A DNA stretch of 33,044 nt from Phycisphaerae bacterium (GTDB lineage: Bacteria > Planctomycetota > Phycisphaerae > Phycisphaerales > UBA1924), in assembly GCA_030429485.1 (NCBI GenBank), contig JAUIFD010000019.1:1-33044 (forward strand). The letters run 5' to 3'. The notes under the pieces are model-generated. The model searched no databases, was not told the origin of the DNA, and worked only from the letters and a program-made list of their open reading frames with translations. Both the position numbers and the translations under genes were made by a program. Position 1 is the first letter of the stretch; each line of letters starts with the position of its first letter. Shown in pieces: positions 10,735-33,044 of the stretch.

Positions 10735-10840
10735 GTAGAGAAGAAGCTGTCCGGGTCACCCTCTTGGTGTAGTTTCACCTCGAGCATGAGGCGCGCGTGG
10801 TCGCTGGATGAAACCGGCTTCATCCGCGGGGATGTGTTGC

Positions 10841-11515
10841 TCAGAGGCTGCGTGGTGGGATCGCGCGGAGCATCTTGCTCGTGATCTCCACCTGCTCACG
10901 CGTGACGCTGTGCGGGCGCCCGGGGTATCTCTCGATACGGACCTTCGCGCCCATGCTCTCGAGCAGATGCGCGGATTCGGCGACGCGGGCCCACGGCACG
11001 TGCGGGTCAGGGTCGTTGGCGGAGACGAGCGCGGGTGTGTCGGCGAGCGAGCCGGTGAAGCGGAACGCGTGCCCCGGTGGTCCGATGAGCCCGCCGGTGT
11101 AGGCGGCGATGCACGCGTAGCGCCGAGGGAAGCGGGCGGCGTGGTCGATCGCGAGGCATGCGCCCTGCGAGAAGCCGATGAGTGCGCACCGATCGGGCGT
11201 GAGCCCCGACTCGCCGGCCGCTTCGATGAGGCGCTCGATGACGGCGTGCGCGGAATCCACGCCGGGCTGATTCGCTTCGAGTGGCGCGAGGAAGGAGAGC
11301 GGGTACCACGTGTGCCCGGCGGCTTGGGGCGCCAGGAACGCCACGCCGTCGGCGTCGAACTCGGGCGCGAGCGACATGATGTCGGCCGCGGATGCGCCGC
11401 GACCGTGGAGGAGGATGACCGCGGCGCGTGCTTCGGTGAGCGGCGTGCCGCTCACAAGCACCGGTTCGCCCGCGTGGGGCGGGAGTGCTCGCGAGGTGTC
11501 GATGGGGGTGGTCAC
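10841..11515 (-). CDS. alpha/beta hydrolase, phospholipase/carboxylesterase family (MhqD-like)
   Basis: A 224-residue cytoplasmic serine hydrolase. Seen are the oxyanion segment LLHGRGA, nucleophile S116 in GFSQG, the acid in NDPDPHVP (D170 most likely), and H202 in PGRPHSV. Length and layout fit the AB_hydrolase_2 family of carboxylesterases that includes B. subtilis MhqD. The GTG start overlaps the dioxygenase stop (GTGA on the minus strand), so it is the last gene of a three-gene operon. In Bacillus the equivalent pair MhqE-MhqD is induced by quinones. A role here in processing ring-cleavage products or detoxifying electrophiles is inferred from that context. Confidence 0.87.
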   Translation of the reverse strand: MTTPIDTSRALPPHAGEPVLVSGTPLTEARAAVILLHGRGASAADIMSLAPEFDADGVAFLAPQAAGHTWYPLSFLAPLEANQPGVDSAHAVIERLIEAAGESGLTPDRCALIGFSQGACLAIDHAARFPRRYACIAAYTGGLIGPPGHAFRFTGSLADTPALVSANDPDPHVPWARVAESAHLLESMGAKVRIERYPGRPHSVTREQVEITSKMLRAIPPRSL

Positions 11516-12450
11516 GCGAGCGGCGCCACGTGCTTCTCGATCTCGGCGCGGCGCGGCTCATACTGCGGCGGGAGTTTGAGCGATGTGCCGAGCGATTCGG
11601 CGGGTTCGTCAACGGCGAATCCCGGCGCGTCGGTCGCGATCTCGAAGATCACGCCGCCGGGGATGCGGAAGTAGATCGAGCGGAAGTACTGGCGGTCGAT
11701 CACCGGCGTGACGTTGACGCCAGCGTCTGCGATGCGCGCGGCGATCTCGGTTTGTGCCTCGTCGGTAGGAACGCGCCACGCGACGTGGTGGATCGTCCCC
11801 GCGCCCATGCGCGCAGCCGGCGCAGAGGCGACGTGGACGAGCTCGACGCCATCGCGATCGTCCGTTGATCCGGGGACGGCGAGCGTGGTGCGATCGCCCT
11901 CGCTCCTGGTGACTTCGAAGCCGAGCGTCTCCTGGAGGAACGACTGTGCAGCGTCGGTGTGGGGCGTCTCGATCGCGACGCCCTGCACGCTGGTGATCGC
12001 GTGTGCTTCGTCGATGCCCGGAGCGGACCATGGGCTCGCTGCGGGGCGATCGCTTTGGATGATCGCGAGGCGCATCGCGTGCGGGTCGTCGAAAGTGAGG
12101 CGCGGCGTGCCGTCGCGCTCGTCCTCGGCCGCGTCGATGTGGCGCTCGGCGAGGCGGGCCTGCCAGAAGTCGAGCGAGCCGATGGGGACTCGGAGCGTGG
12201 CGCGAGTGATCTCGGGGGTGCCGCGCACGCCCTGCTTGGCGTGCGGGTGCGGGAAGTGCGTCAGGAGTGAGCCGGGCGAGCCGGCGGCGTCGCCGTAGTA
12301 GAGGTGGTAGACGTACGGGTCGTCGAAGTTGACGGTGCGTTTGACGAGGCGCAACCCCAGCACGTCGGTGTAGAAGGCGGCGTTCTCCGCGGGGCGCGCC
12401 GCGAGCGCCGTGACGTGGTGCAGCCCCGTGATGCGTGCGTCGCCTGTCAC
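11512..12450 (-). CDS. VOC-family ring-cleaving dioxygenase (MhqE/MhqO-like)
   Basis: A 312-residue protein with tandem glyoxalase-like (VOC) modules. The first opens with ITGLHHVTA and FYTDVLGLRLVK; the second holds TIHHVAWRV and ends in PGGVIFEI. Candidate metal ligands are H11/H12, H221/H222 and E270. The LLTHFPHPHAKQG segment is typical of bacterial ring-cleaving dioxygenases of the MhqO/MhqE group, which act on hydroquinones or catechols. The GTG at 12450 is chosen because it lies one base after the SDR stop with GAGGGC upstream; an open frame reaches further but would overlap the SDR gene. The downstream hydrolase overlaps by four bases. Confidence 0.87.
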   Translation of the reverse strand: MTGDARITGLHHVTALAARPAENAAFYTDVLGLRLVKRTVNFDDPYVYHLYYGDAAGSPGSLLTHFPHPHAKQGVRGTPEITRATLRVPIGSLDFWQARLAERHIDAAEDERDGTPRLTFDDPHAMRLAIIQSDRPAASPWSAPGIDEAHAITSVQGVAIETPHTDAAQSFLQETLGFEVTRSEGDRTTLAVPGSTDDRDGVELVHVASAPAARMGAGTIHHVAWRVPTDEAQTEIAARIADAGVNVTPVIDRQYFRSIYFRIPGGVIFEIATDAPGFAVDEPAESLGTSLKLPPQYEPRRAEIEKHVAPLA

Positions 12451-13264: not shown

Positions 13265-15415
13265 CTAGCGGGCGACGGCTGTTGTCGTCAGGTTGGTCGC
13301 CATCCAGGTCTGGTTGGGGTACCACGAGTAACGGACGAACGCATTCGAGTTGGTGTAGCCAAAGACGTTGAGCGAAGAATCGGGGCCTGCGATGCCGGTC
13401 ACCGGGCCGTTGGCGATCACAGGCGAGCCGGCGGGCACTGCGTCGGTAAGCGAGGCGATCGCCCATCCGTCGGCCTGGCGTCCCGGCGCCCACCAGTAGG
13501 TCGTGACGTCGCCTGTCGCGAGGTCGACGCCGACGACATTGAGCCCGTCCCAACTGCTCACGAAGCTCGAGACGGTGTCGGGGTCGAGCGAGGGGCCGTT
13601 GGTCTCGGCGGTGAGTGAGCTTTGCACCCAGTCGCCGCCGAACGACGGCACCCACCAGGTGACGAGCAGAGCGCCGGCGCCATCGATGCCGGCGATGTTG
13701 ATCCCGTTCCAGGAGGTGAGGTAGACGGTGAGTCCACCGACGAGCGGGTCGGAGCCGTACGCGGTGGTGAGGTCGGACAGTCGCCAGTTGGTGATCGTCG
13801 GCGCGGTCCAGACCGACCAGATGGTGCCCTCCGCGTCGAGCCCGGCGATGTTGAGCCCGCCCCAACTCGTTGCGTAGCTCACGAGCCCCGTGATCGCGGG
13901 GGTGGTGGCCCCCGCGGGATCGAGGTCTTGCGTCGAGATGTTGCGGAACGACCAGACCGATCCGCCGCCCGGGGCGTCCTGCGCGGTCTGGCGGAAGTAG
14001 AGCACGTCGCCGGTCGCGGAGAGCCCGGTGAGGTGGGCGTATCCGTCGGGCGAGATCATGACGCCGAGTTCGGTCGCGATGGCTTGCGCGCCGGCGACCT
14101 CATCGGTGAGGATGCGGTACGACCAGGTTGTGTCAGAGGCTTCGGTGTAGAGCGCGAGTCCAGAGCCCGTGACCGCGGCGGCCGTGCTTGCGCCGGTCAT
14201 GGTGTCCACCCATGTCACCAGATCGCCCGTGATGGTCGGGCCGCCAACGGAAGTCAGCAGGTCGATCTGGTACCAGATGGAGTCGCTCTCGAGCTGGTAG
14301 ATCGCCGGGCGGCTGAACTGGTTGGCGCCCGGCACGGAGAAGACCACGCGGTCGTCTGGGCCGGTCCCGCCTCCGCCGTCGTTGCCGAGATCACGAGTCG
14401 CGACGCCGAAGACTGGGATGCTGCCGAAAGCGGCGTCCTCTTCGTGTGGGATGAGGATGCGTCCGTCTTGTCCGATGTAGAGGGTTGTGTCGTCGTCGGA
14501 GTTGTCTTCGTCGAGGATGAGCGCCGAGCCGGAGATTCGCCACTCGCCCTCTTCGATTCGAACGAAGTTGCCCGAGTCCCACTCGTCGAGGTCGTAGAGC
14601 TGGTATTCGCCGTCGCCCTCGAGATCGAGGCGGAACTGGGAGAAGTTGATCCCGCCGCCGACGACCACGCCCCATCCCATGTTGTACGAGCCGACCAACT
14701 CGGATGATGTGAGGGTGGAATCGACGCGCGTCGCGATACCGATGTAGAGCTCGCCGTCGTCGGAGTCGGTGTCGACGAAGATGACGGTGCGCCCGTCGGC
14801 GGAGAGGAAGAAGTACTCTTCCTGGTCGGTGTGTGCGACGCCCCTCTCGTCGACGTCGATGATGAAGGTCTCGTCGTTGGGCATGTCGCCCGAGTAGCGG
14901 ATGAGATCGTTGTTGATCGAGAGGGTGCTCGACTCGGTGAAATAACGGGCTGTGTCGGTGTTGAATCCGATCGCGGTGTACTGATAGGTCCCTGAGAAAT
15001 CGGATCGGCTTACGCCGGAGCCGGGGATCTCGACGAGCACCTCAAGCTCCTCGGTCGAGTTCTCGTACTCACCGAGCCACCATCCCGCCGGGTAGCCGTC
15101 GGCCCAGAGGAACTGGGCGCCGTTGGTCTCGACGGGAGTCGCGTTGAGGAAGCCCTCGTTGTCTTGGCGGATCATCCGTCCGTCGTCGATTTTAAAGATC
15201 TTGTCGTAGGAGAGATCGTCGTAGTCGTCGCGCCCGCCGCGGTCGTCGACCCAGGTCTGCGAGCCGGTCACGTTGCCGTCGTCGTCGACGGTGACCTCTT
15301 CGATGAAGGTGTTGGCCGCGGCCTGTCCCAGGCCGTTAGGCCCAAAGACGAGGGCCACTCCGGCGTAGTCCGACGAGAGGAGCGCACGGGGTTCCAGCGA
15401 TTCGAACTTGTGCAT
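13265..15415 (-). CDS. LEPR-motif surface protein with repeat modules and propeller-like C-terminus
   Basis: A 716-residue protein starting MHKFESLEPRALLSS, the LEPR-type motif found at the start of many planctomycete surface proteins, without a classical signal peptide. Residues about 18-340 are acidic and Asp/Gly-rich, with at least two modules of about 100 residues: one opens SGTYQYTAIGF (141) and ends IGIATR (230), the other opens VGSYNMGWG (241) and ends FGVATR (341). Residues about 365-716 hold roughly six beta-rich repeats of 50-61 residues marked by N-I-A-G-L-D-type motifs at 522, 573, 626 and 683, with weaker ones at 411 and 461. This suggests a six-bladed propeller. The function is unknown; binding or adhesion is a guess. 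AGGA lies before the ATG. It is transcribed in the same direction as fumC, 39 bp downstream. Confidence 0.8.
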   Translation of the reverse strand: MHKFESLEPRALLSSDYAGVALVFGPNGLGQAAANTFIEEVTVDDDGNVTGSQTWVDDRGGRDDYDDLSYDKIFKIDDGRMIRQDNEGFLNATPVETNGAQFLWADGYPAGWWLGEYENSTEELEVLVEIPGSGVSRSDFSGTYQYTAIGFNTDTARYFTESSTLSINNDLIRYSGDMPNDETFIIDVDERGVAHTDQEEYFFLSADGRTVIFVDTDSDDGELYIGIATRVDSTLTSSELVGSYNMGWGVVVGGGINFSQFRLDLEGDGEYQLYDLDEWDSGNFVRIEEGEWRISGSALILDEDNSDDDTTLYIGQDGRILIPHEEDAAFGSIPVFGVATRDLGNDGGGGTGPDDRVVFSVPGANQFSRPAIYQLESDSIWYQIDLLTSVGGPTITGDLVTWVDTMTGASTAAAVTGSGLALYTEASDTTWSYRILTDEVAGAQAIATELGVMISPDGYAHLTGLSATGDVLYFRQTAQDAPGGGSVWSFRNISTQDLDPAGATTPAITGLVSYATSWGGLNIAGLDAEGTIWSVWTAPTITNWRLSDLTTAYGSDPLVGGLTVYLTSWNGINIAGIDGAGALLVTWWVPSFGGDWVQSSLTAETNGPSLDPDTVSSFVSSWDGLNVVGVDLATGDVTTYWWAPGRQADGWAIASLTDAVPAGSPVIANGPVTGIAGPDSSLNVFGYTNSNAFVRYSWYPNQTWMATNLTTTAVAR

Positions 15416-22510: not shown

Positions 22511-22607
22511 GGTTCGTGCGACGGAGACGGCGGTTGACGAGGATGCGACCTGCGCCGGCGGTAGCATGCGCACGGCCGGTCGTGCATCGGGCCATAGGAG
22601 ATTCAGC

Positions 22608-23642
22608 ATGCGGTTCGGAAGATACACAGCAATGGTCGCGGCCTTTGGCGTCGCGGCTCCCGCTTCGGCGCAGTTGATGGTGGTGGACAGCTCGGGCGAT
22701 CGCGTCTGCTTGTTTGACCAAGAAGACGGGTCGGTCATCGACCTGGATTGGCTCAGCGACGCCGGCGCCGTTGGATGGGCGTTCTCGACGCCGAAGGAAG
22801 CAGCGGTTGTCGGCGATGAGATCTGGGTCGCGGATCAGCTTGAGGACGCGATCCACCGTTTCGCCGCTGACGGGGTGTTTCTCTCGACCATCACCGAGGG
22901 TCCGGGTGGTCAGCCTCTCAACAACATCAGGAGCCTCGGCGTCACCGGCGATACGGTGTATGTGACCAACGCGGACGCGCCGCTCAACGACGCGATTGTT
23001 ATCTTCTCGAGCGACGGCACGCCGATGAGCAGCTTCGCTGCGTCCGGCGCGTTCTCGCTCGGGTGCTTCGACGCGGAGCCGTTCAACGGCGAGATTCTCG
23101 TTTCCAACGCCGATTCCGACGCGCTGCAGCGCTATACGGAGTCCGGCGCGTTCCTCGGGAACTTCGCGAGCGGGTACGCCTACTTGGAGCAGGTCGTTGT
23201 GCTCGACGACGGGAGCGTCCTCACTGCCAACGCGATCGACTCGGTCGGTATCGAGGGTATCTACCACTTCAACGCCGATGGTTCGGTTCGGGCGTACCTC
23301 GACACCGCCGCCATCAATACGTCCGCGGTGATCCGCGGCGCCAACGTGCTCAACAACGGCGGGTATCTCGTCTCGACCTCGGCGGGGGTCTGGACCTATG
23401 TCTCCGGCGTCTGGACGGAGATCAACGGTGACATCAACGGCCAGTACATCACGGTGCTGTCTGCCGGTGACGATGCCTGTGCGCCGGACCTGACGGATGA
23501 CGGCAACGTCGACACCAACGATTTCTTCCTGTTCTTGACGTACTACCAGAACCAGGACCCACGCGCCGATTTCTCCGCCGGCGGCGGGATCAACACCAAC
23601 GACTTCTTCGCCTTCCTCGCGGCCTACCAGGCTGGGTGCTGA
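22608..23642 (+). CDS. secreted beta-propeller-like protein with C-terminal GC-type dockerin-like tail
   Basis: A 344-residue secreted protein. The signal peptide (residues 1-21, ending ASA-Q) is followed by an NHL/SMP-30-like beta-propeller region (about 25-285) with repeats such as EIWVADQLEDAIHRF, TVYVTNAD and EILVSNADSDALQRY. Residues 294-344 form two EF-hand-like dockerin segments: DLTDDGNVDTNDFFLFL, then INTNDFFAFLAAYQAGC. The protein ends in Gly-Cys, the form known as GC-type dockerin in Phycisphaerae, thought to act in surface sorting or attachment. The ATG has GGAG 7 nt upstream. A TTGACG at 22534 and TAGCAT at 22562 are 22 nt apart, too far for a standard promoter. A strong terminator follows. 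Confidence 0.87.
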   Translation: MRFGRYTAMVAAFGVAAPASAQLMVVDSSGDRVCLFDQEDGSVIDLDWLSDAGAVGWAFSTPKEAAVVGDEIWVADQLEDAIHRFAADGVFLSTITEGPGGQPLNNIRSLGVTGDTVYVTNADAPLNDAIVIFSSDGTPMSSFAASGAFSLGCFDAEPFNGEILVSNADSDALQRYTESGAFLGNFASGYAYLEQVVVLDDGSVLTANAIDSVGIEGIYHFNADGSVRAYLDTAAINTSAVIRGANVLNNGGYLVSTSAGVWTYVSGVWTEINGDINGQYITVLSAGDDACAPDLTDDGNVDTNDFFLFLTYYQNQDPRADFSAGGGINTNDFFAFLAAYQAGC

Positions 23643-26090: not shown

Positions 26091-28256
26091 CTATTCCGCG
26101 CTGGCTCGGGCCAGCGCGTCACGGATCATCGCGTAGAACGTGCCAACCGATTCGGGCTCGTCGGCCTTCGCATCGGGGGGCGGCACGCGCGGCACGTACG
26201 AACCATCGGGTTGAAGGTCCCAGGCGCGGCGGTGGTCACGACGGAGCGTGTCGACGATCTTCAGGAGACGCGCGCGCGAGTCCCGATCGCGCACGGGCAC
26301 CGCCGCTTCCACGCGGTCGTTGAGGTTGCGGTGCATCCAATCCGCGGACCCGATGTACCACGCGCCGTCGAGCGGGTCGTCGCGGCCCGCGGCAAAGTGG
26401 AACAAGCGCGAGTGTTCGAGGAAACGCCCGATTACCGAGACCACCTTGATGTTCTCGGAGAGCCCCGGCACGCCCGGGCGCAGGCAACAGAACCCGCGCA
26501 CGAAGAGTTCCACCGGCACGCCGGCGATCGACGCCTCGTACAGGTGCTCGGTGATCTGCTGATCCTCCAGGGAGTTCATCTTCGCAACGATCCGCGCCGG
26601 ACGGCCCGCCTTTGCGTGCGCGATCTCAGAGTCGATCAGGCGACTGAACTCCATGCGCATCGTCTCCGGTGCGACGAGGAGCTCGTTGTAGGTCGCTTGG
26701 CGGGAGTGTCCTGTCAGCAGGTTAAACAGCGCCACGACGTCGTCGGTGATCGCCGGATTCGCGGTGAGAAGGCCGAGGTCGGTATAGAGCTGGGCGGTGT
26801 GCGGGTGGTAGTTCCCCGTACCGATGTGGACGTACGAGCGAAGCCCGTGGGGCTCGCGCCGCACCACGAGCGAGCACTTGCAGTGCGTCTTAAGACCGAT
26901 CACACCGTACGCCACGTGCACGCCGTGCTTTTCGAGCTGTCGCGCGAAGCGCACGTTGCGTGACTCGTCGAAACGTGCGCGCAGCTCCACGAGGCAGGCG
27001 ACCTGCTTGCCTCGCTCCGCGGCGCGGATCATCGACGCGAGGAACGGCGAGTCGCGGCTCGTGCGGTAGATCGTCTGCTTGATCGCCAGCACGTTCGGGT
27101 CCCGTGCCGCCTGCGCGATGAACCGCTCGATCGAAGCCTCGAAGCTGTCGTACGGATGGTGCAGCAGGATGTCGCGCTTGCGAATTGTCGCGAAGATGTC
27201 GGGTTCGTCTTTGCCGGGCTCGGGGGCGAGCGCCGGCGGCACGATCGGCTTCCACGTGCGCTGCTTGAGGTCGGGGCGATCGATGTCCGCCAGCTGAAAC
27301 AGATCGCCGTACTCCATCGGCCCCCGGCGGACGTACACGTCGTCCGGCGTGAGCATGAGCTCGTCGCAGACGATCCGGCGCACCCGGCGGTCGTGCGCCG
27401 GGGTGAGTTCGAGCCTGACGCCTTCGGCGAAGCGGCGCGCGCGCAGCTCGGTCTCCACGTGCTCCAGGAGGTCGTCGACTTCCTCCTCATCGTCCGGCTC
27501 GACACCCGCGGCACGCGTGACACGGAACGGCGTCGCCGACTCGATCGTCAAACCGGGAAAGAGATCGTCCAGGTTGTGCACGATCAGGTCTTCGAGGTGC
27601 ACCAGCGCCGTGTCGCCCGATTCGCCGGGGATCGGCACGAAGCGGCGCAGCGCGTCGGGGACCTTCAGGCGAGCGAACTGCGGCGGGGCCGCGTTCTCCG
27701 ATGCGAGCAGCACGCCGAGGTTCTCCGACAGGTTCGAGATGAACGGGAACCGGTGCCCGGGGTCTACCGCGAGCGGCGTGAGGATCGGGAACACGTTTGC
27801 GCGGTGCCAGCGGTCGAGTTGTTCGCGCTGCGGGGCATCCAGGTCGGCGTACGCCATGATGCGGACGCCATTGGCCGCGAGTTCGGGGCGGAGCGCGTCT
27901 TCCCACAGCGCGGCCTGCTGCTGCTGCAGGTGCGCGACGACGCGGCGGATCTCCTGAAAGAGGGTCGCGGGCGTGTACCCGTCGCGGTGCGGGTCTCGCC
28001 GAGGCTTGAGCATGCGGCGCTTGAGCAGCGCGACGCGCTTCATGAAGAACTCGTCCAGGTTCGACGCGAAGATCGCGAGGAACTTCACCCGGTCGAGCAG
28101 CGGGAAGTCGGGGTCCCAAGCCTGCGCCAATACACGCCTGTTGAACTCGAGCCACGAGAGATCACGGTTGAAGAAGTGGTCCGACAGCGGCGCCGCGGGC
28201 CCCTCTGCGAGCACGCGCATGGCTTCCGATTCCGGGATGGGCGCCTTGTCTGTCAC
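26091..28256 (-). CDS. ppk1: polyphosphate kinase 1
   Basis: PPK1 reversibly polymerises the gamma-phosphate of ATP into polyphosphate. The 721-residue protein has the N-terminal FFNRDLSWLEFNRRVL and FASNLDEFFMKRV, the middle domain with NLSENLGV, and the C-terminal phospholipase-D-like catalytic domains. These include GLKTHCK (H458 as likely phospho-histidine), SYVHIGTGNYH (474-484) and YIGSADWMHRNLNDRVE. Length is normal. The GTG start follows a weak upstream region without a good Shine-Dalgarno. The gene stands alone; ppx and phoU are not adjacent. Confidence 0.95.
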   Translation of the reverse strand: MTDKAPIPESEAMRVLAEGPAAPLSDHFFNRDLSWLEFNRRVLAQAWDPDFPLLDRVKFLAIFASNLDEFFMKRVALLKRRMLKPRRDPHRDGYTPATLFQEIRRVVAHLQQQQAALWEDALRPELAANGVRIMAYADLDAPQREQLDRWHRANVFPILTPLAVDPGHRFPFISNLSENLGVLLASENAAPPQFARLKVPDALRRFVPIPGESGDTALVHLEDLIVHNLDDLFPGLTIESATPFRVTRAAGVEPDDEEEVDDLLEHVETELRARRFAEGVRLELTPAHDRRVRRIVCDELMLTPDDVYVRRGPMEYGDLFQLADIDRPDLKQRTWKPIVPPALAPEPGKDEPDIFATIRKRDILLHHPYDSFEASIERFIAQAARDPNVLAIKQTIYRTSRDSPFLASMIRAAERGKQVACLVELRARFDESRNVRFARQLEKHGVHVAYGVIGLKTHCKCSLVVRREPHGLRSYVHIGTGNYHPHTAQLYTDLGLLTANPAITDDVVALFNLLTGHSRQATYNELLVAPETMRMEFSRLIDSEIAHAKAGRPARIVAKMNSLEDQQITEHLYEASIAGVPVELFVRGFCCLRPGVPGLSENIKVVSVIGRFLEHSRLFHFAAGRDDPLDGAWYIGSADWMHRNLNDRVEAAVPVRDRDSRARLLKIVDTLRRDHRRAWDLQPDGSYVPRVPPPDAKADEPESVGTFYAMIRDALARASAE

Positions 28257-28357
28257 AGCCGAGATTCTTGGCGCGCAACTCCCGTCGCTCTACTTGCCGT
28301 CCGCCGGCTCGCAGGAGCGGGTCCGGCGTACGTTACCGCCGCGCGCCGTCACGCGCC

Positions 28358-29017
28358 TTAGTAGTCTGACCCGTTGATCGAACGGTGGATGACCGGGATC
28401 CTCCACCACAGGTCCTTCAAGCCGTAGTGATCTCGCAGGCTCCCGCCCCAGACAAGGTCCTTCGAGAGTTCCTCGTCGATCACGGACCCCATCTGGTACC
28501 GCACGTTGGGCGATTCCCACATCAGGTCCTCGCTCGGCACCAGCGGGAATCCGGAGAACGTCCACGGCGGACGCAGCACGTAGCCCGAGTGCGTGAACTC
28601 TCGGTCGCCGGGTGACTTGATGGCGCCGAATGGCGAGTCGTCGAACATCGAGTAGAAGCTCCATCCCTGCCCGATGCTCATCTTCGAGGCGTTCATCCCG
28701 TCCTCGGCGGAGAGGTAGGTCACGACGTCCGTAAGGTCTTCAGCCACACCGTCGAACTGGTCCTCTTCCCAGGTGGGGATGGCGGGCGCATCGAGGTCGT
28801 TGATGCTCTGGGCCCAGAAGTTGAGGTCCATGAACGCCATCGACGCCTCGAACGTCTTGCGGTGCGCGTCGAGGTAGGCGCGCTGGTTGCGCCCGTGCAG
28901 GCGCACGACCATGAAGGCCGTCCACATCATCCCGATGAGGATAATGAACACCAGGATCGTCTCCACGACCACGGCCCCGCGGTCGTCCTTGATCAGGGAT
29001 CGGTTGCGATCTTCCAT
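28358..29017 (-). CDS. TadE-like pseudopilin-type protein, third in the Tad operon
   Basis: A 219-residue protein starting with a short charged stretch (DDRGAVVVE), then one hydrophobic helix (residues 15-37). The Gly-Ala before V-V-V-E19 is the TadE/TadG plan of a pseudopilin-like N-terminus. The remainder is a hydrophilic, Trp/Asp-rich domain presumably outside the membrane. It differs from ordinary TadE in its long C-terminal part. It is 9 bp downstream of the 508-residue TadG-like gene, with a GGAG before the ATG, and is the last gene of the operon. A structural or assembly role in a Tad-type pilus is inferred from context. Confidence 0.7.
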   Translation of the reverse strand: MEDRNRSLIKDDRGAVVVETILVFIILIGMMWTAFMVVRLHGRNQRAYLDAHRKTFEASMAFMDLNFWAQSINDLDAPAIPTWEEDQFDGVAEDLTDVVTYLSAEDGMNASKMSIGQGWSFYSMFDDSPFGAIKSPGDREFTHSGYVLRPPWTFSGFPLVPSEDLMWESPNVRYQMGSVIDEELSKDLVWGGSLRDHYGLKDLWWRIPVIHRSINGSDY

Positions 29018-29026
29018 GGTGTGCTC

Positions 29027-30553
29027 CTAGTGGTAGATGAGTGACCGGAGGCGCCGGGCGAACTGCCCGTCGTCCTGCGGAAGGTGGTTGTTCTCGCCGC
29101 CCGAGATCATGAAGTAGTGGTGGTGTGACTGCAGGCGGATGTGTTCACCGTCGGATTCGATCCTCGCGCCCAGGAAGTCCGGGTGCACCTCCCGCAGCCT
29201 CGCCTGCCAGTTCCACCCCCACGTCGAGAACATGCGGTAGGGGTAGGGGATATCGAGCGGCGCCGTGAGACGGTTGATCGTGGGGTTGTAGTACTCGGCG
29301 CTCGCGACCGCGAGCGTCGAGTCGTCCCAGTTTGCACCGGGGCTAAACCAGCCGTCGAAGAGGTACCTCCCCTTTGCGCCGAACCGACCCACCGACGGAT
29401 CGGCGAGGTTGTTGGTGATGCGCGTGGTCGCGGCGTTGCCCACGTTGCGGAGCGTGACCGCCGCGGTCATCGTGTACTTGTCGAACACGTCCGTGTCGGC
29501 GTTGTCGTCGTACGAGAGCAGGTCGGAGTCGAAGTTGCCGTAGGACGTGGCGAACCACATCGGCGCACGACCGTTCACCCCGAACGGCGGCGTCCACTCC
29601 ATGAACGGGATCGAGAACCCGCCCAGATTCACCGGGTCCTGCAGCACGACGGTGCGGTTCGACAGCTCCAGCACGTTGAGCACGTAGAAGATCATCACGC
29701 ACGTGCGCCACGCCTCCTGCCCGCGTCCGAACACCACCGGCGCGAACTTGTTGTACCAGTGCTCGTGGTCGCGGTACACGCGGATCAGCAGCGGGAGCGC
29801 GACGTCGAACCGGTTCAGGAAGCTCGGTCCGAAGTCGCCGATCGAGCCGACCATCGACGAGGCGTACGAATCGAGGGGGAGGTCCGACATGTCGATGTCG
29901 CGGTCGGGCGCCTCGGTCCCGGACGATTCCTCGTCGACCGAGTCGCCGATCAGGATGTCGCAGTTGTACCGCTCCTCGTAGGTCTTCACCATCTTCTCGA
30001 TCACGGGGTCCGGTATCTCGATCAGCTTCTTCTGGAAGTCGTTGAGCTCGCGTATGCGCGCGGCGACCGTGCCGGGCGGTCCTGTCCCGGCGATCGCGTC
30101 TATGGTGCCGAATATCAACTCCCATATGCCGTTGATCACCCCTGGTAAGAAGTCGATCACGACAGCGAAGAACTCCTCGACGCAGAACCCCGCCACAATG
30201 AGCGCAAAGGGCCCCGCGCTCGCGATCGCGCGGATCCAGTTGTAGACGATCAGGATCAGCGTCAGCGGGCTCGCCTGGAGCAGGATGTTCGCGCTGATGT
30301 GCTGCGTGATGCCGACGTTGGTCGCGACCGCGAGGTTCATCGCGCGGGCCTTGGTCAGCGCGGCGTTGTACACCACCGCGTCCGCGACCATCTGCGTCTG
30401 GATGCTCTTGGTCGTCACCTGGGCGGTGTTCCAGGTGTACCCGACACTCGAGAAGATGACGAAGATGTAGAACATCATCAGCATCACCCACACGTTCCCG
30501 CGGTCTTCGCGGTGCAGGCGACGCACGAATCTGGGGGCGTCAACCGTCATCAT
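29027..30553 (-). CDS. TadG-like pilus-associated protein, 508 aa
   Basis: A 508-residue protein with an N-terminal DRGNVWVMLMMFYIFVIFSS helix (19-37), the plan of TadG/TadE-type proteins. A segment DAVVYNAALTKARAMNLAVATN (58-79) follows, recalling the AADAAAL-type helix of TadG. Two more hydrophobic stretches lie at about 97-113 and 115-137. The large C-terminal part (150-508) is hydrophilic, beta-rich, and likely extracytoplasmic. The ATG overlaps the upstream gene's stop (ATGA, 30550-30553), so the two are translationally coupled. Assignment to the Tad system comes from the N-terminus and neighbours; the C-terminal domain is not recognised. Confidence 0.7.
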   Translation of the reverse strand: MMTVDAPRFVRRLHREDRGNVWVMLMMFYIFVIFSSVGYTWNTAQVTTKSIQTQMVADAVVYNAALTKARAMNLAVATNVGITQHISANILLQASPLTLILIVYNWIRAIASAGPFALIVAGFCVEEFFAVVIDFLPGVINGIWELIFGTIDAIAGTGPPGTVAARIRELNDFQKKLIEIPDPVIEKMVKTYEERYNCDILIGDSVDEESSGTEAPDRDIDMSDLPLDSYASSMVGSIGDFGPSFLNRFDVALPLLIRVYRDHEHWYNKFAPVVFGRGQEAWRTCVMIFYVLNVLELSNRTVVLQDPVNLGGFSIPFMEWTPPFGVNGRAPMWFATSYGNFDSDLLSYDDNADTDVFDKYTMTAAVTLRNVGNAATTRITNNLADPSVGRFGAKGRYLFDGWFSPGANWDDSTLAVASAEYYNPTINRLTAPLDIPYPYRMFSTWGWNWQARLREVHPDFLGARIESDGEHIRLQSHHHYFMISGGENNHLPQDDGQFARRLRSLIYH

Positions 30554-31818
30554 GGCAGGGGGCTCCCTGAGATCAGCGAGGTCACGTGTCCGACGCGAGT
30601 CCCCGTGGACTGCAGCGCGACCTCGCTCTTGAGGGTGATGTACCGACCGGGCACGCCGTGGCGGGTCTCGCGGTTCGGCTCCATGAGCATCGCGACCAAC
30701 GGCATCTTGAGCTGGTACGGGTATTCGATTGTCACGGTCACCTGGCGAGGGGCGAACGGGTTGTCGAAGTTCACCGTGTCGGCGATGCTCTGCAGGTTGT
30801 TGAACAGCGGGCGGATCAGCTCGTTGATCGCCGGCGTGACGACGTACTCCTTCACCAGGTCCTTCAGACCCGTGTCGAGCCCGAAATCGGAGAACCCGAG
30901 ACCCGGGTTCCAGGCCTTGATGTCCGGGAAGGGCCAGGGCAACGGCACGATCGTGATCCAGTCGGGCGCCTTGTTCGGGTTGAGGATCCCGTTGAGCATG
31001 TCGTCGAACAGCCCGATCTGCGCCAGGATGTCGTCGAACGCGCCCTGAAACGCGGACGTGTACTGCTGCCCGTCAAAGTTCAGGAACGGCGGACGCCCCA
31101 TCTCCACCTCGATGCGGCTTCCCGGCACATTCGCCTCGAGCGCTCGCAGCGCCCAAGACGCCCGTCGCTCGTACCGATCCGGTGTGTACCCCCACGGCGC
31201 ATACGAGACCCCCGTCTCGGCGAACGCCCGCGCGGGCGACACGCCCGACTGCGTCGTCTCGGTTTCCCAGCCCGCGTTCGGCGAGCTGTGCATCGGCGCG
31301 AGCTGCGCGAGCACGAGGGCGGCCGCCTCGCGCGGGCGGTGCATGCGTCCGTCCGGAATCTCCTCGTCGAACATGAAGTCGTACACGAGCCCGGCGAAGT
31401 TGTCCTCCTCGATCTGCACCACCGCCGAGCGCGCCGCGCGCCACGCGGCGAAGTCCGCCACGATCTTCGCCCGCCCGATCAGCAGGAACTGGATCACCAG
31501 CCCGAACATGATGTACACCCAGGGGAAGGTGAGCAGGAACTCGACCGAGAGCGTCCCGCTCTCGCCGTCGCGCGCCATGTGGCGGCGCTTGTGGGCGAGG
31601 CGCGCCAAGCGCAGCAGCACGCGCCCGGCGCCGATGCTGCACACGATCACCCCCACGCCGACCACCGCGATGAAGACCTCGTCGGCGGTCAGGTCGATCC
31701 GGCCGCCGTAGTCGGCGACCGCGTGGACGTTGCGGAACAGCGCGAGCGCGCCCGCGACCGCCAAGACCGCGAGGCCGTCGGCTACCAGTTCGCGTTGTGT
31801 GCGTCGAGAGATCACCAT
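30550..31818 (-). CDS. TadE-like protein with two extra N-terminal membrane segments
   Basis: A 422-residue protein. Hydrophobic segments at about 12-30 and 46-68 come first, then a basic loop (RLAHKRRHMARD), then a TadE-type helix at about 88-115 opening GTLSVEFLLTFPWVY with E93. The WRAARSAVV stretch after the helix is usual in TadE proteins. The rest (135-422) is hydrophilic. This is a fusion-like layout, since standard TadE has a single N-terminal helix. A GGAG lies before the ATG, 26 bp after the prepilin peptidase gene, and the stop overlaps the TadG-like gene. It probably belongs to the pilus envelope complex. Confidence 0.72.
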   Translation of the reverse strand: MVISRRTQRELVADGLAVLAVAGALALFRNVHAVADYGGRIDLTADEVFIAVVGVGVIVCSIGAGRVLLRLARLAHKRRHMARDGESGTLSVEFLLTFPWVYIMFGLVIQFLLIGRAKIVADFAAWRAARSAVVQIEEDNFAGLVYDFMFDEEIPDGRMHRPREAAALVLAQLAPMHSSPNAGWETETTQSGVSPARAFAETGVSYAPWGYTPDRYERRASWALRALEANVPGSRIEVEMGRPPFLNFDGQQYTSAFQGAFDDILAQIGLFDDMLNGILNPNKAPDWITIVPLPWPFPDIKAWNPGLGFSDFGLDTGLKDLVKEYVVTPAINELIRPLFNNLQSIADTVNFDNPFAPRQVTVTIEYPYQLKMPLVAMLMEPNRETRHGVPGRYITLKSEVALQSTGTRVGHVTSLISGSPLP

Positions 31819-31844
31819 GATCGTCTCCTTACCTCAGCAGCCCC

Positions 31845-32729
31845 TTACCCGCCCATGTTCAGGAACTTCAGGATCGGCTCCCACAGCGGAGCCCACTGGG
31901 CGCAGATCAGCCCGAGCAGCACGGCTACCCCGAACGGCGCCTCCGACTTCCCGAATGGGTACACGTCGAGCGCCTTCTTGCGCAGCGTCAGGTTGACCTG
32001 CAGCGCCATCGACATCGCCTGAATCTTCCGCACCAGGTTGCCCTTGAACATCAGGTTCACGATCCCGATGATGCACGCGAACACCAGCGCGTTGAACAGC
32101 ACCGCGATCGACTCCTGAAAGCCGAGGATCGCGCCGATCGCTGCGATCAGCTTCACGTCACCGCCGCCCAGCCCGCGGAACATGAAGCTGAAGATGCCGA
32201 TGCCCGCGCACGCCATGAACCCCATGACGGCGCCGATAATCCCCGGCGCCGCGAGCCACACGAGCGCCGTCTCCGCCATCGGGTGCGCCTCGCGCAGCTG
32301 CATCAGGATCGGCCAGACCACCACGCTGAGCCCCAGCCCCAGCAGGATCGCCGGATACGTCAGTACGTTCGGGATCCGTCGCGTGGCCGAATCCGACATC
32401 GCCGCGACCGTCGTCACCACGAACGCGAGCGCCAGCGCGAACCCCTTGTACGTGTACAGGCGGTCCGGGTGCAACGGCCATCCCATGAGCTGGAACAGCG
32501 TCGCCAGCATCGCGGCGACCGAAAGTCCGAGCACCCACCAGAGCACCCAGTAGCGCTCGGCCTCGGATTTCAGGCTTTCCTTCTCGCCCGGGCTCGCGGC
32601 GGACTCATCGAGTGCCGCGTGATCGTCATCCGCTGCGGACTCGACCGGCGCGCCCGACTCCGGCGCAGGGATACCGGAACTCGTCACCTGCTCCAGGAGT
32701 TCGTTACGCCCGTCAGCTGCCATGGTCAT
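31845..32729 (-). CDS. prepilin peptidase CpaA/TadV (A24 family)
   Basis: A 294-residue inner-membrane aspartic protease that cleaves Flp-type prepilins. Catalytic Asp residues are D113 in SDSATRRIPN and D191 in GLGGGDVKL. At least six hydrophobic helices follow residue 60. Like other CpaA/TadV proteins it lacks the N-methylase domain of PilD. Unusual is an acidic N-terminal extension (residues 1-58, many Asp, Glu and Ser) on the cytoplasmic side. The ATG at 32729 has GGAGGG 7 nt upstream; a second in-frame ATG lies two codons on. It is the first of four genes on the minus strand after a terminator-like hairpin. Confidence 0.9.
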   Translation of the reverse strand: MTMAADGRNELLEQVTSSGIPAPESGAPVESAADDDHAALDESAASPGEKESLKSEAERYWVLWWVLGLSVAAMLATLFQLMGWPLHPDRLYTYKGFALALAFVVTTVAAMSDSATRRIPNVLTYPAILLGLGLSVVVWPILMQLREAHPMAETALVWLAAPGIIGAVMGFMACAGIGIFSFMFRGLGGGDVKLIAAIGAILGFQESIAVLFNALVFACIIGIVNLMFKGNLVRKIQAMSMALQVNLTLRKKALDVYPFGKSEAPFGVAVLLGLICAQWAPLWEPILKFLNMGG

Positions 32730-32896
32730 TCCTTGTCCCTCCTAGCCTACCAGCGTGCGTCCGCGTGCCAAACGCCGACGCTGCGCCAGGGACCGGCGTT
32801 CCGCCTGGAGCGCCAACATGCAAAATGCGGAAACGCCCGGACGCGGAGGTCATCAACCGTCCATTGCAGAGATCCCGGCTTCCGGCGCCCGCCCCA

Positions 32897-32931
32897 AAGA
32901 GCACGGGGCGCCCGGCAAGCCGGGCGCCCCG
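32897..32931 (-). terminator. strong hairpin terminator or attenuator before cpaA
   Basis: On the minus strand CGGGGCGCCCGGC (32904-32916) pairs perfectly over 13 bp with 32919-32931 across an AA loop, and the stem is followed by TGCTCTTT. It lies 40 nt after the stop of the partial gene at the right edge and 167 nt before the cpaA start. It would limit read-through from that gene into the Tad operon. The 32732-32896 spacer holds nothing else I recognise. Confidence 0.78.
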
Positions 32932-32970
32932 CGTGGATGGTCCCTTGTTCCGGGCGAGCCCGGTCAGGCG

Positions 32971-33044
32971 TTAGCCGCCGGGCGTGAAGTCGGTGTTCTG
33001 GGCGTCGTTCATGTCCTGCGCCGCCTGGTCTGCGGTCTGGTCCA
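32971..33044 (-). CDS. 3' end of a gene upstream of cpaA (possibly Flp pilin)
   Basis: Only the last 23 full codons are visible, ending in Asp/Gln/Asn-rich sequence (QAAQDMNDAQNTDFTPGG) and a TAA at 32971-32973. A Flp-family pilin is the usual gene at this place in Tad loci, and a small pilin followed by a strong terminator fits. The tail itself is not diagnostic, and any other protein with a polar C-terminus is possible. Confidence 0.5.
   Translation of the reverse strand, partial: DQTADQAAQDMNDAQNTDFTPGG

Follow-up and report, generated by a model that had tools for sequence, protein, structure and literature searches.

A planctomycete Tad pilus operon segment encoding a probable tip complex of divergent minor pilins, in a genome with two CpaF families

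Contig JAUIFD010000019.1 of a Phycisphaerae bacterium (assembly GCA_030429485.1), referred to here as the window, is a complete contig of 33,044 bp (C59) in a draft genome of 290 contigs that is about 90% complete, and its right end lies inside a flp gene. Close to that end, four genes encode a long-form prepilin peptidase, CpaA, and three membrane proteins, termed P2, P3 and P4. At a rough probability of 0.75, these genes are the cpaA–tadE–tadG–tadF/E segment of a planctomycete Tad (type IVc) pilus operon, and the three proteins form the pilus tip complex. The Tad reading is based on the gene order, on the remaining machine components encoded elsewhere in this draft genome and on the profile links of P2 and P3 to Tad families through their orthologues.

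The positions and sizes of the four open reading frames (ORFs) given in a preliminary description of this DNA, together with the N-terminal motifs read there in P2, P3 and P4, hold on the minus strand (Table 1). The genes are separated by 26 bp (CpaA–P2), a 4-bp overlap (ATGA; P2/P3) and 9 bp (P3–P4), in agreement with the translational coupling or near-coupling proposed at that stage. All four were among the training seeds of the gene caller, and their being called is not counted as evidence. An NCBIfam scan of CpaA, P2, P3 and P4 gave no match at E ≤ 1, and a scan of positions 28200–33044 for promoters and terminators returned no promoter-like and one terminator-like site, a yield not above that of shuffled sequence. 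A dedicated prepilin peptidase is present, as CpaA matches the Pfam family Peptidase_A24 at 51.3 bits (cut-off 26.5; E 1.8e-13). The 58-residue acidic extension already noticed in this protein was confirmed by residue counts (14 D/E versus 3 K/R in residues 1–58), and an extra predicted transmembrane (TM) helix (61–79) precedes the usual first one. The DSAT motif, with D113, and the GGGDVK motif from residue 188, which we take to be the catalytic Asp motifs, are both C-terminal to the extension and the extra helix.

The other components of a Tad machine are encoded elsewhere in the genome. The gene cut at the right end of the window finishes DQTADQAAQDMNDAQNTDFTPGG followed by the stop codon. 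Contig C202 starts with the same 33 bases as the end of C59, and the frame across the overlap begins MQIAKLKNAALRLHKDESGPNTVEWVLLI, which is a Flp pilin whose G-x4-E motif, GPNTVEWVLLI, spans the junction; its Flp1_like match (E 8.8e-5, 22.3 bits) is below the cut-off of 33.5. Beyond flp, C202 carries a second Flp-like gene and cpaF, with a divergent secretin gene (Secretin E 2.4e-38; STN and Secretin_N matches just under their cut-offs) and a gene for a TPR protein of the TadD type. Contig C219 encodes RcpC (E 2e-16), TadB and TadC as adjacent genes (T2SSF, E 4.3e-15 and 3.7e-15), a second CpaF with an N-terminal FHA domain (FHA 17–85, T2SSE 275–547), and a further FHA protein and a Ser/Thr kinase, each with a predicted TM helix, which in the kinase is followed by CarboxypepD_reg repeats. 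The search for the missing Tad genes, for which the lack of a Tad ATPase or secretin had been named as the refuting outcome, thus recovered flp and CpaF on C202 and TadB and TadC on C219, and with the secretin, RcpC and the TadD-like protein also in the genome, the identification of a Tad operon stands.

The kinship of the trio with TadE and TadG was examined through profiles. The best place for TadE in the genome is P2, at 20.2 bits, under the cut-off of 22.9; its orthologues in two related genomes, G007 and G028, exceed that value (24.5 and 27.7 bits), and TadE is matched at E ≤ 0.05 by 11/11 aligned members of the P2 subtype. Three P3 orthologues scanned singly all exceed the Tad PF13400 cut-off of 22.3 (33.6, 29.3 and 42.9 bits), and the same family is matched at E ≤ 0.05 by eight of the nine members of the P3 subtype, the window copy being the exception. 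The alignments include neither L097, L100 and L105, which are partial or lack the trio, nor the very divergent P3 and P4 of L103 and L104, two loci that enter the P2 alignment only. P4 has the motif DRG-AVVVE, in which R13, G14 and E19 are invariant in 9/9 aligned members, and its operon position is conserved across relatives; motif, size and position suggest a TadF/E-like identity for this protein. The kinship that had been claimed for the whole trio is therefore supported for P2 and P3 through orthologues above the TadE and Tad cut-offs, although the window copies themselves fall short of these values, and P4 is only weakly linked by profiles. A reading of the trio as unrelated membrane proteins was ruled out by these P2 and P3 orthologues and by the kept gene order.

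In P2, the pilin motif (ESG-TLSVEF, with the site G88 TLSVE93) is preceded by two hydrophobic segments (10–28 and 47–65, by hydropathy). An AlphaFold2 (AF2) model of mean pLDDT 66.8 has helices at 5–29 and 45–81, a pilin-type helix at 87–142, and strands at 235–241, 359–369 and 393–403, the first and second of which are separated by an inserted helical region. No fold in the PDB matched this model at E ≤ 0.001 (Foldseek), and the best match of the P2 profile to PDB sequences (E 0.019) was a cilia protein and was taken as chance. The two added spans of the preliminary description are thus present in P2, but they do not distinguish this operon: of 55 TadE-like proteins of the named loci, 49 have one or two hydrophobic helices N-terminal to the TadE motif (9/13 labelled P2-like and 40/42 labelled standard TadE-like), a count made at a hydropathy threshold of 1.4, with the two-span window protein set aside, and dependent on gene starts, which were set in the relatives by rule as the first start after the cpaA stop. 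By this count, a polytopic TadE is the rule in these mostly planctomycete loci. The strict G-x4-E motif is retained in 42 of the 55, four have only a partial motif, and nine have no Glu there. The loop ahead of the motif appears by eye to be basic in aligned P2 members, and it should face the cytoplasm, the side where the peptidase cuts. P2 might instead be a permanent membrane scaffold, held by its N-terminal hairpin, left uncleaved and absent from the filament, a reading considered somewhat less likely than not. The helices ahead of the motif and the 13/55 proteins without strict G-x4-E, nine of them without the Glu, speak for such a scaffold, as do the short leaders that are the described norm for TadE; however, the motif is kept in most of the set, in a presumed cytoplasmic loop, which would be odd without processing.

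P3 starts with the motif DRGNVWVM, which lacks the Glu, as in uncut TadG, and continues into a long N-terminal helix (17–155 in an AF2 model of mean pLDDT 61.5). Foldseek against the PDB found no fold match for the model at E ≤ 0.001, leaving the distal domain unmatched, and the best match of the P3 profile to PDB sequences had an E of 0.22. The profile matches 54/198 genomes of the class: end-to-end in three (G028, G033 and the source genome, G000), at both ends in four (G105, G126, G148 and G201), and in the remaining 47 over only about 50–160 N-terminal positions, usually in larger proteins. The simplest reading of this distribution is that the TadG-like protein combines a common N-terminal base with an exchangeable, subtype-specific distal domain. 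Differences of this kind between subtypes would be explained by specialisation of the tip no less well than by the adaptation to the planctomycete envelope suggested in the preliminary description.

Relatives were collected by successive searches. P2 as a single-protein query matched 7/41 genomes, its own included; CpaA and CpaF were used as the next queries, and a CpaF alignment run against named genomes found 287 relatives; the 80 best of these make up the set of named loci. The top matches were Phycisphaerales metagenome-assembled genomes. Relatives of P2, P3 and P4 stand together downstream of cpaA in ten of these best 80 loci, which is above chance; three of the ten (L096, L101 and L102) are copies of query loci (G007, G033 and G028, respectively) and seven are further loci. 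In G007 and G028, both halves of the system lie in one stretch, in the order FHA-CpaF (incomplete at the edge of the retrieved stretch), TadB, TadC, FHA protein and kinase, convergent with P4, P3, P2, CpaA, Flp, Flp2 and CpaF, so that P4 is convergent to the kinase gene; in G007, secretin and TadD genes are divergent from CpaF. The closest named locus, L094 (Phycisphaerales OFTM382), carries TadD, secretin, CpaF, Flp, CpaA, P2, P3 and P4 on one contig, which supports the join between C59 and C202. Nine further loci come from genomes of the same order: seven carry together, arranged in this sequence, CpaF, Flp, CpaA (178–199 residues), a TadE-like protein, a kinase, a TadG-like protein (626–688 residues), TadE2, RcpC and FHA-CpaF, and L083 and L088 have the three minor-pilin genes only. 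Two Tad loci per genome, one of the window subtype and one standard, were observed in G028 and G033 (L078 and L080; L079 and L081). Among 36 genomes of the same family, a strong match to the long CpaA was found in G007 only, four more gave E values of 9e-5 to 9e-4, and P3 was matched in G007 alone. By these matches, the window-type locus is patchy in the family and would have been gained or often lost.

The two CpaF proteins of the genome belong to separate families. A quick tree was built from 108 rows, with L096, L101, L102, L113, L124, L135, L147 and L167 omitted as copies of G-genome loci. In it, 83 short CpaF are split from 24 long CpaF (512–670 residues) plus Caulobacter CpaF by a branch with 100% SH-aLRT support; the 24 long sequences as a group without Caulobacter CpaF have a support of only 67. 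Ahead of the N-terminal domain (NTD), the short proteins have a median of 22 residues (3–377, the long values being over-extended ORFs) and the long ones a median of 276 (207–329), and an 18-column run ending four columns before the NTD is empty in all short CpaF and filled in all long CpaF and Caulobacter CpaF. The best PDB matches of the two proteins, 8rkd and 9e24, are in line with this difference. The match to 9e24, which is Caulobacter CpaF, starts at residue 148 for the short CpaF and at residue 103 for FHA-CpaF, with scores against Caulobacter CpaF of 273.9 bits for the C202 protein and 334.8 bits for the C219 protein. In the available part of the published work, Caulobacter CpaF has a 79-residue intrinsically disordered region (IDR) followed by a three-helix bundle (3HB), and 3HB-NTD-CAD is given as the minimum architecture of CpaF (PMC12019362). 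An FHA domain was above the Pfam cut-off in 8/11 long CpaF scanned (the one in this genome and 7/10 others) and was not seen at that cut-off in those of L106, L115 and L149. As read from the alignment columns, all 83 short CpaF have the Walker A Lys and Thr, the Walker B Glu and the final His of the His box, as do 24/24 or 23/24 long CpaF, of which one row is incomplete.

Both families occur in one stretch in 29 of the best 80 loci, and in 25/38 of those of at least 18 kb, counts that are lower bounds since the stretches end at contig ends or at 10 kb. Six loci labelled Deltaproteobacteria, Granulosicoccaceae or proteobacterium (L110, L127, L149, L152, L155 and L170) fall within the short-CpaF clade; a long CpaF is also present in L110, L149 and L170, with FHA above the cut-off in L110 and L170. 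Because these three loci pair a short with a long CpaF, the arrangement is not restricted to planctomycetes. Within the present genome, PF00437 ATPases occupy 15 places; one of them, C249, was under the cut-off and was not compared, and the other compared proteins score at most 61 bits against either CpaF, versus 271 bits between the two CpaF. One CpaF of each family is thus apparently present among the genome loci examined, and no second match to TadB or TadC was found among those loci. A second Tad-type secretin gene with an adjacent TadD-like gene lies on contig C126 (Table 1); this secretin is 44.5% identical to the C202 secretin over 600 residues, and no other Tad gene was recognised in the 18 kb of C126 that were examined.

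Table 1. Tad-related features of the window (C59) and of other contigs of the same genome
Feature	Location	Strand	Remarks
CpaA/TadV-type prepilin peptidase, long form	31845-32729	minus	294 aa; Pfam Peptidase_A24
P2, polytopic TadE-like minor prepilin	30550-31818	minus	422 aa; TadE links via orthologues
P3, TadG-like large minor pilin	29027-30553	minus	508 aa; Tad PF13400 via orthologues
P4, putative TadF/second-TadE-like minor prepilin	28358-29017	minus	219 aa; motif, size, position
flp, C-terminal codons of Flp pilin	32971-33042	minus	rest of gene on contig C202; stop at 32971
Short CpaF	C202, L013:528-1682		no recognisable three-helix bundle; family separate from FHA-CpaF
FHA-CpaF, TadB, TadC, membrane FHA protein, receptor-type Ser/Thr kinase	C219, L010:2179-4053 and L010:5878-9079		signalling module in Tad locus, kept in relatives
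Second Tad-type secretin (841 aa) and adjacent TadD-like gene	C126, L174:6576-10385		510 and 291 bits to C202 copies

In the window, P4 is immediately followed, in the same orientation, by a polyphosphate kinase gene (ppk; 26091–28256, four PP_kinase domains). In G007 and G028, this place is taken by the convergent kinase gene. Three further window ORFs have no Pfam match at E ≤ 1e-5: 13265–15415 (716 aa), 22566–23642 (358 aa) and 10808–11674 (288 aa).

In the mechanism proposed here, CpaA would act at the cytoplasmic face, cutting Flp and P4 at G-x4-E. It may process P2 as well, in which case cleavage after G88 would set free a leader of 88 residues with two helices. A priming complex, held together by the packed α1 helices of P2, P3 and P4, would initiate assembly and finally sit at the tip with the P3 distal domain outermost, in the manner proposed for KilL/M/N and TadE/F/G. 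Two CpaF motors would move the filament, of which FHA-CpaF, with its canonical N-terminal region, is probably the extension or a bifunctional motor and the short CpaF possibly the retraction or an accessory motor; the receptor Ser/Thr kinase and the membrane FHA protein would gate FHA-CpaF. Taken jointly, a two-motor Tad pilus would occur in planctomycetes and in certain loci with the labels Deltaproteobacteria/Myxococcota or Granulosicoccaceae. Its FHA-CpaF would be gated by a receptor Ser/Thr kinase through phospho-threonine and a minimal CpaF without the three-helix bundle would serve retraction, so that a division of labour like that of PilB and PilT would have arisen a second time; the tip would be primed by a polytopic TadE with a membrane-segment leader, and TadG-type distal domains would be exchangeable. 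We regard this full combination as tentative and rather improbable as a whole, and its two-motor, phospho-gated control, proposed from architecture and linkage, as doubtful.

Several observations weigh against the Tad tip reading or its parts. The window copy of P2 scores only 16.3 bits against TadE PF07811 in the Pfam scan, that of P3 has no Tad PF13400 match in the same scan and is not among the Tad-profile matches in its own genome, and profile matches of P4 are weak (TadE 1/9, Flp1_like 1/9, with a weak Flp1_like match for the window copy). The AF2 models of P2 and P3 are of middling confidence, and P2 may stay membrane-anchored outside the filament, given that 9/55 TadE-like proteins lack the Glu. 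The join between C59 and C202 is based on the 33-bp overlap, one continuous frame and synteny, and the motor roles are read from architecture. In addition, the second secretin–TadD pair on C126 means that the two CpaF could serve two machines, with the short CpaF in one Tad pilus and FHA-CpaF with TadB and TadC in another. This pair lowers the case for two motors on one pilus and raises that for two machines, which is also favoured by the location of the two CpaF on different contigs and by ppk, rather than the receptor kinase gene, after P4. In the 18 kb examined on C126, the pair has no CpaF near it. However, TadB and TadC occur only on C219 among the loci examined, so that a second machine would have no platform unless one is missing from the incomplete draft, and both CpaF families share a stretch in the 29 loci counted above, four of which (L095, L098, L099 and L100) also have one secretin–TadD pair in that stretch. 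Two separate machines are thus considered unlikely.

The components shared with the Tad/type IVc pili of Caulobacter (cpa) and Aggregatibacter (tad) are Flp, CpaA, CpaF, TadB, TadC, the secretin, RcpC, a TadD-like TPR protein and TadE/TadG-like minor pilins. A short protein-secreting pseudopilus, rather than a surface pilus, might also use such parts, as large minor pilins and a secretin are common to type II secretion; but the short Flp-type pilin, the second Flp-like gene, RcpC and the split TadB/TadC argue against it, as do the other PF00437 ATPases that the genome has for other systems, and it is judged very unlikely. The system departs from described Tad pili by a TadE-like protein with extra TM helices, by the kinase and FHA genes in the locus and by two CpaF families, whereas the available parts of the published accounts describe one bifunctional CpaF (PMC12019362, PMC11300603, PMC6711533), with pilus extension and retraction both assigned to that one motor and the switching left open (PMC12019362, PMC11300603). 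Neither a second CpaF/TadA in one Tad system nor planctomycete Tad pili were recognised, by title or abstract, in any report among the top open-access matches. The FHA-CpaF proteins of C219 and relatives resemble CpaF class III (FHA-IDR-3HB-NTD-CAD), which the available part of that report places mostly in betaproteobacteria (PMC12019362); here, they are mostly from planctomycetes and stand alongside a second CpaF that has no recognisable 3HB and is below the stated minimum architecture. With the PilB/PilT type IVa pilus, the likeness is one of analogy only, in two ATPases possibly acting on one filament; because both ATPases here are of the CpaF type, the two-motor arrangement would be a separate duplication.

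Tip complexes of a comparable kind have been proposed elsewhere. In the parts of the sources available, TadE/F/G trimers are proposed to form the pilus tip and Kil has 'adaptable tips' (PMC12075869), and a comparable tip model is given for CpaJ/K/L of Caulobacter, where CpaL has a von Willebrand domain (PMC13170226); no such domain was recognised in P3 by the Pfam scan. The Kil apparatus of Myxococcus xanthus, as described in those parts, has an FHA-fused CpaF (KilF), further FHA proteins and TadE/F/G-like tip trimers (KilL/M/N) with variable distal domains. FHA-CpaF, an FHA protein and a TadG-like protein that is modular across genomes invite the same interpretation here, a contact-dependent killing apparatus that delivers or triggers lysis when its tip meets a prey cell. 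However, Kil is described as having one ATPase, lacking TadD and possessing an exceptionally short secretin without N0, in contrast to the two CpaF, the TadD-like protein and the secretin here, whose STN and Secretin_N matches are near threshold. On this comparison with the description of Kil, a Kil-type function is considered quite improbable. Membership of Kil itself was ruled out by the two CpaF and the TadD-like TPR proteins.

The Tad pilus is an already known type, and the two CpaF families with kinase and FHA genes are a departure from the published single-motor Tad. Loci that combine these genes would offer a natural system in which pilus direction and control are separable and in which the one-motor rule is testable. 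With a polytopic TadE, the question arises whether a protein with several membrane spans can be cleaved by a prepilin peptidase within a loop. The tip genes, for their part, point to exchange of TadG-type distal domains on a common base well beyond the predators from which adaptable tips have been reported.

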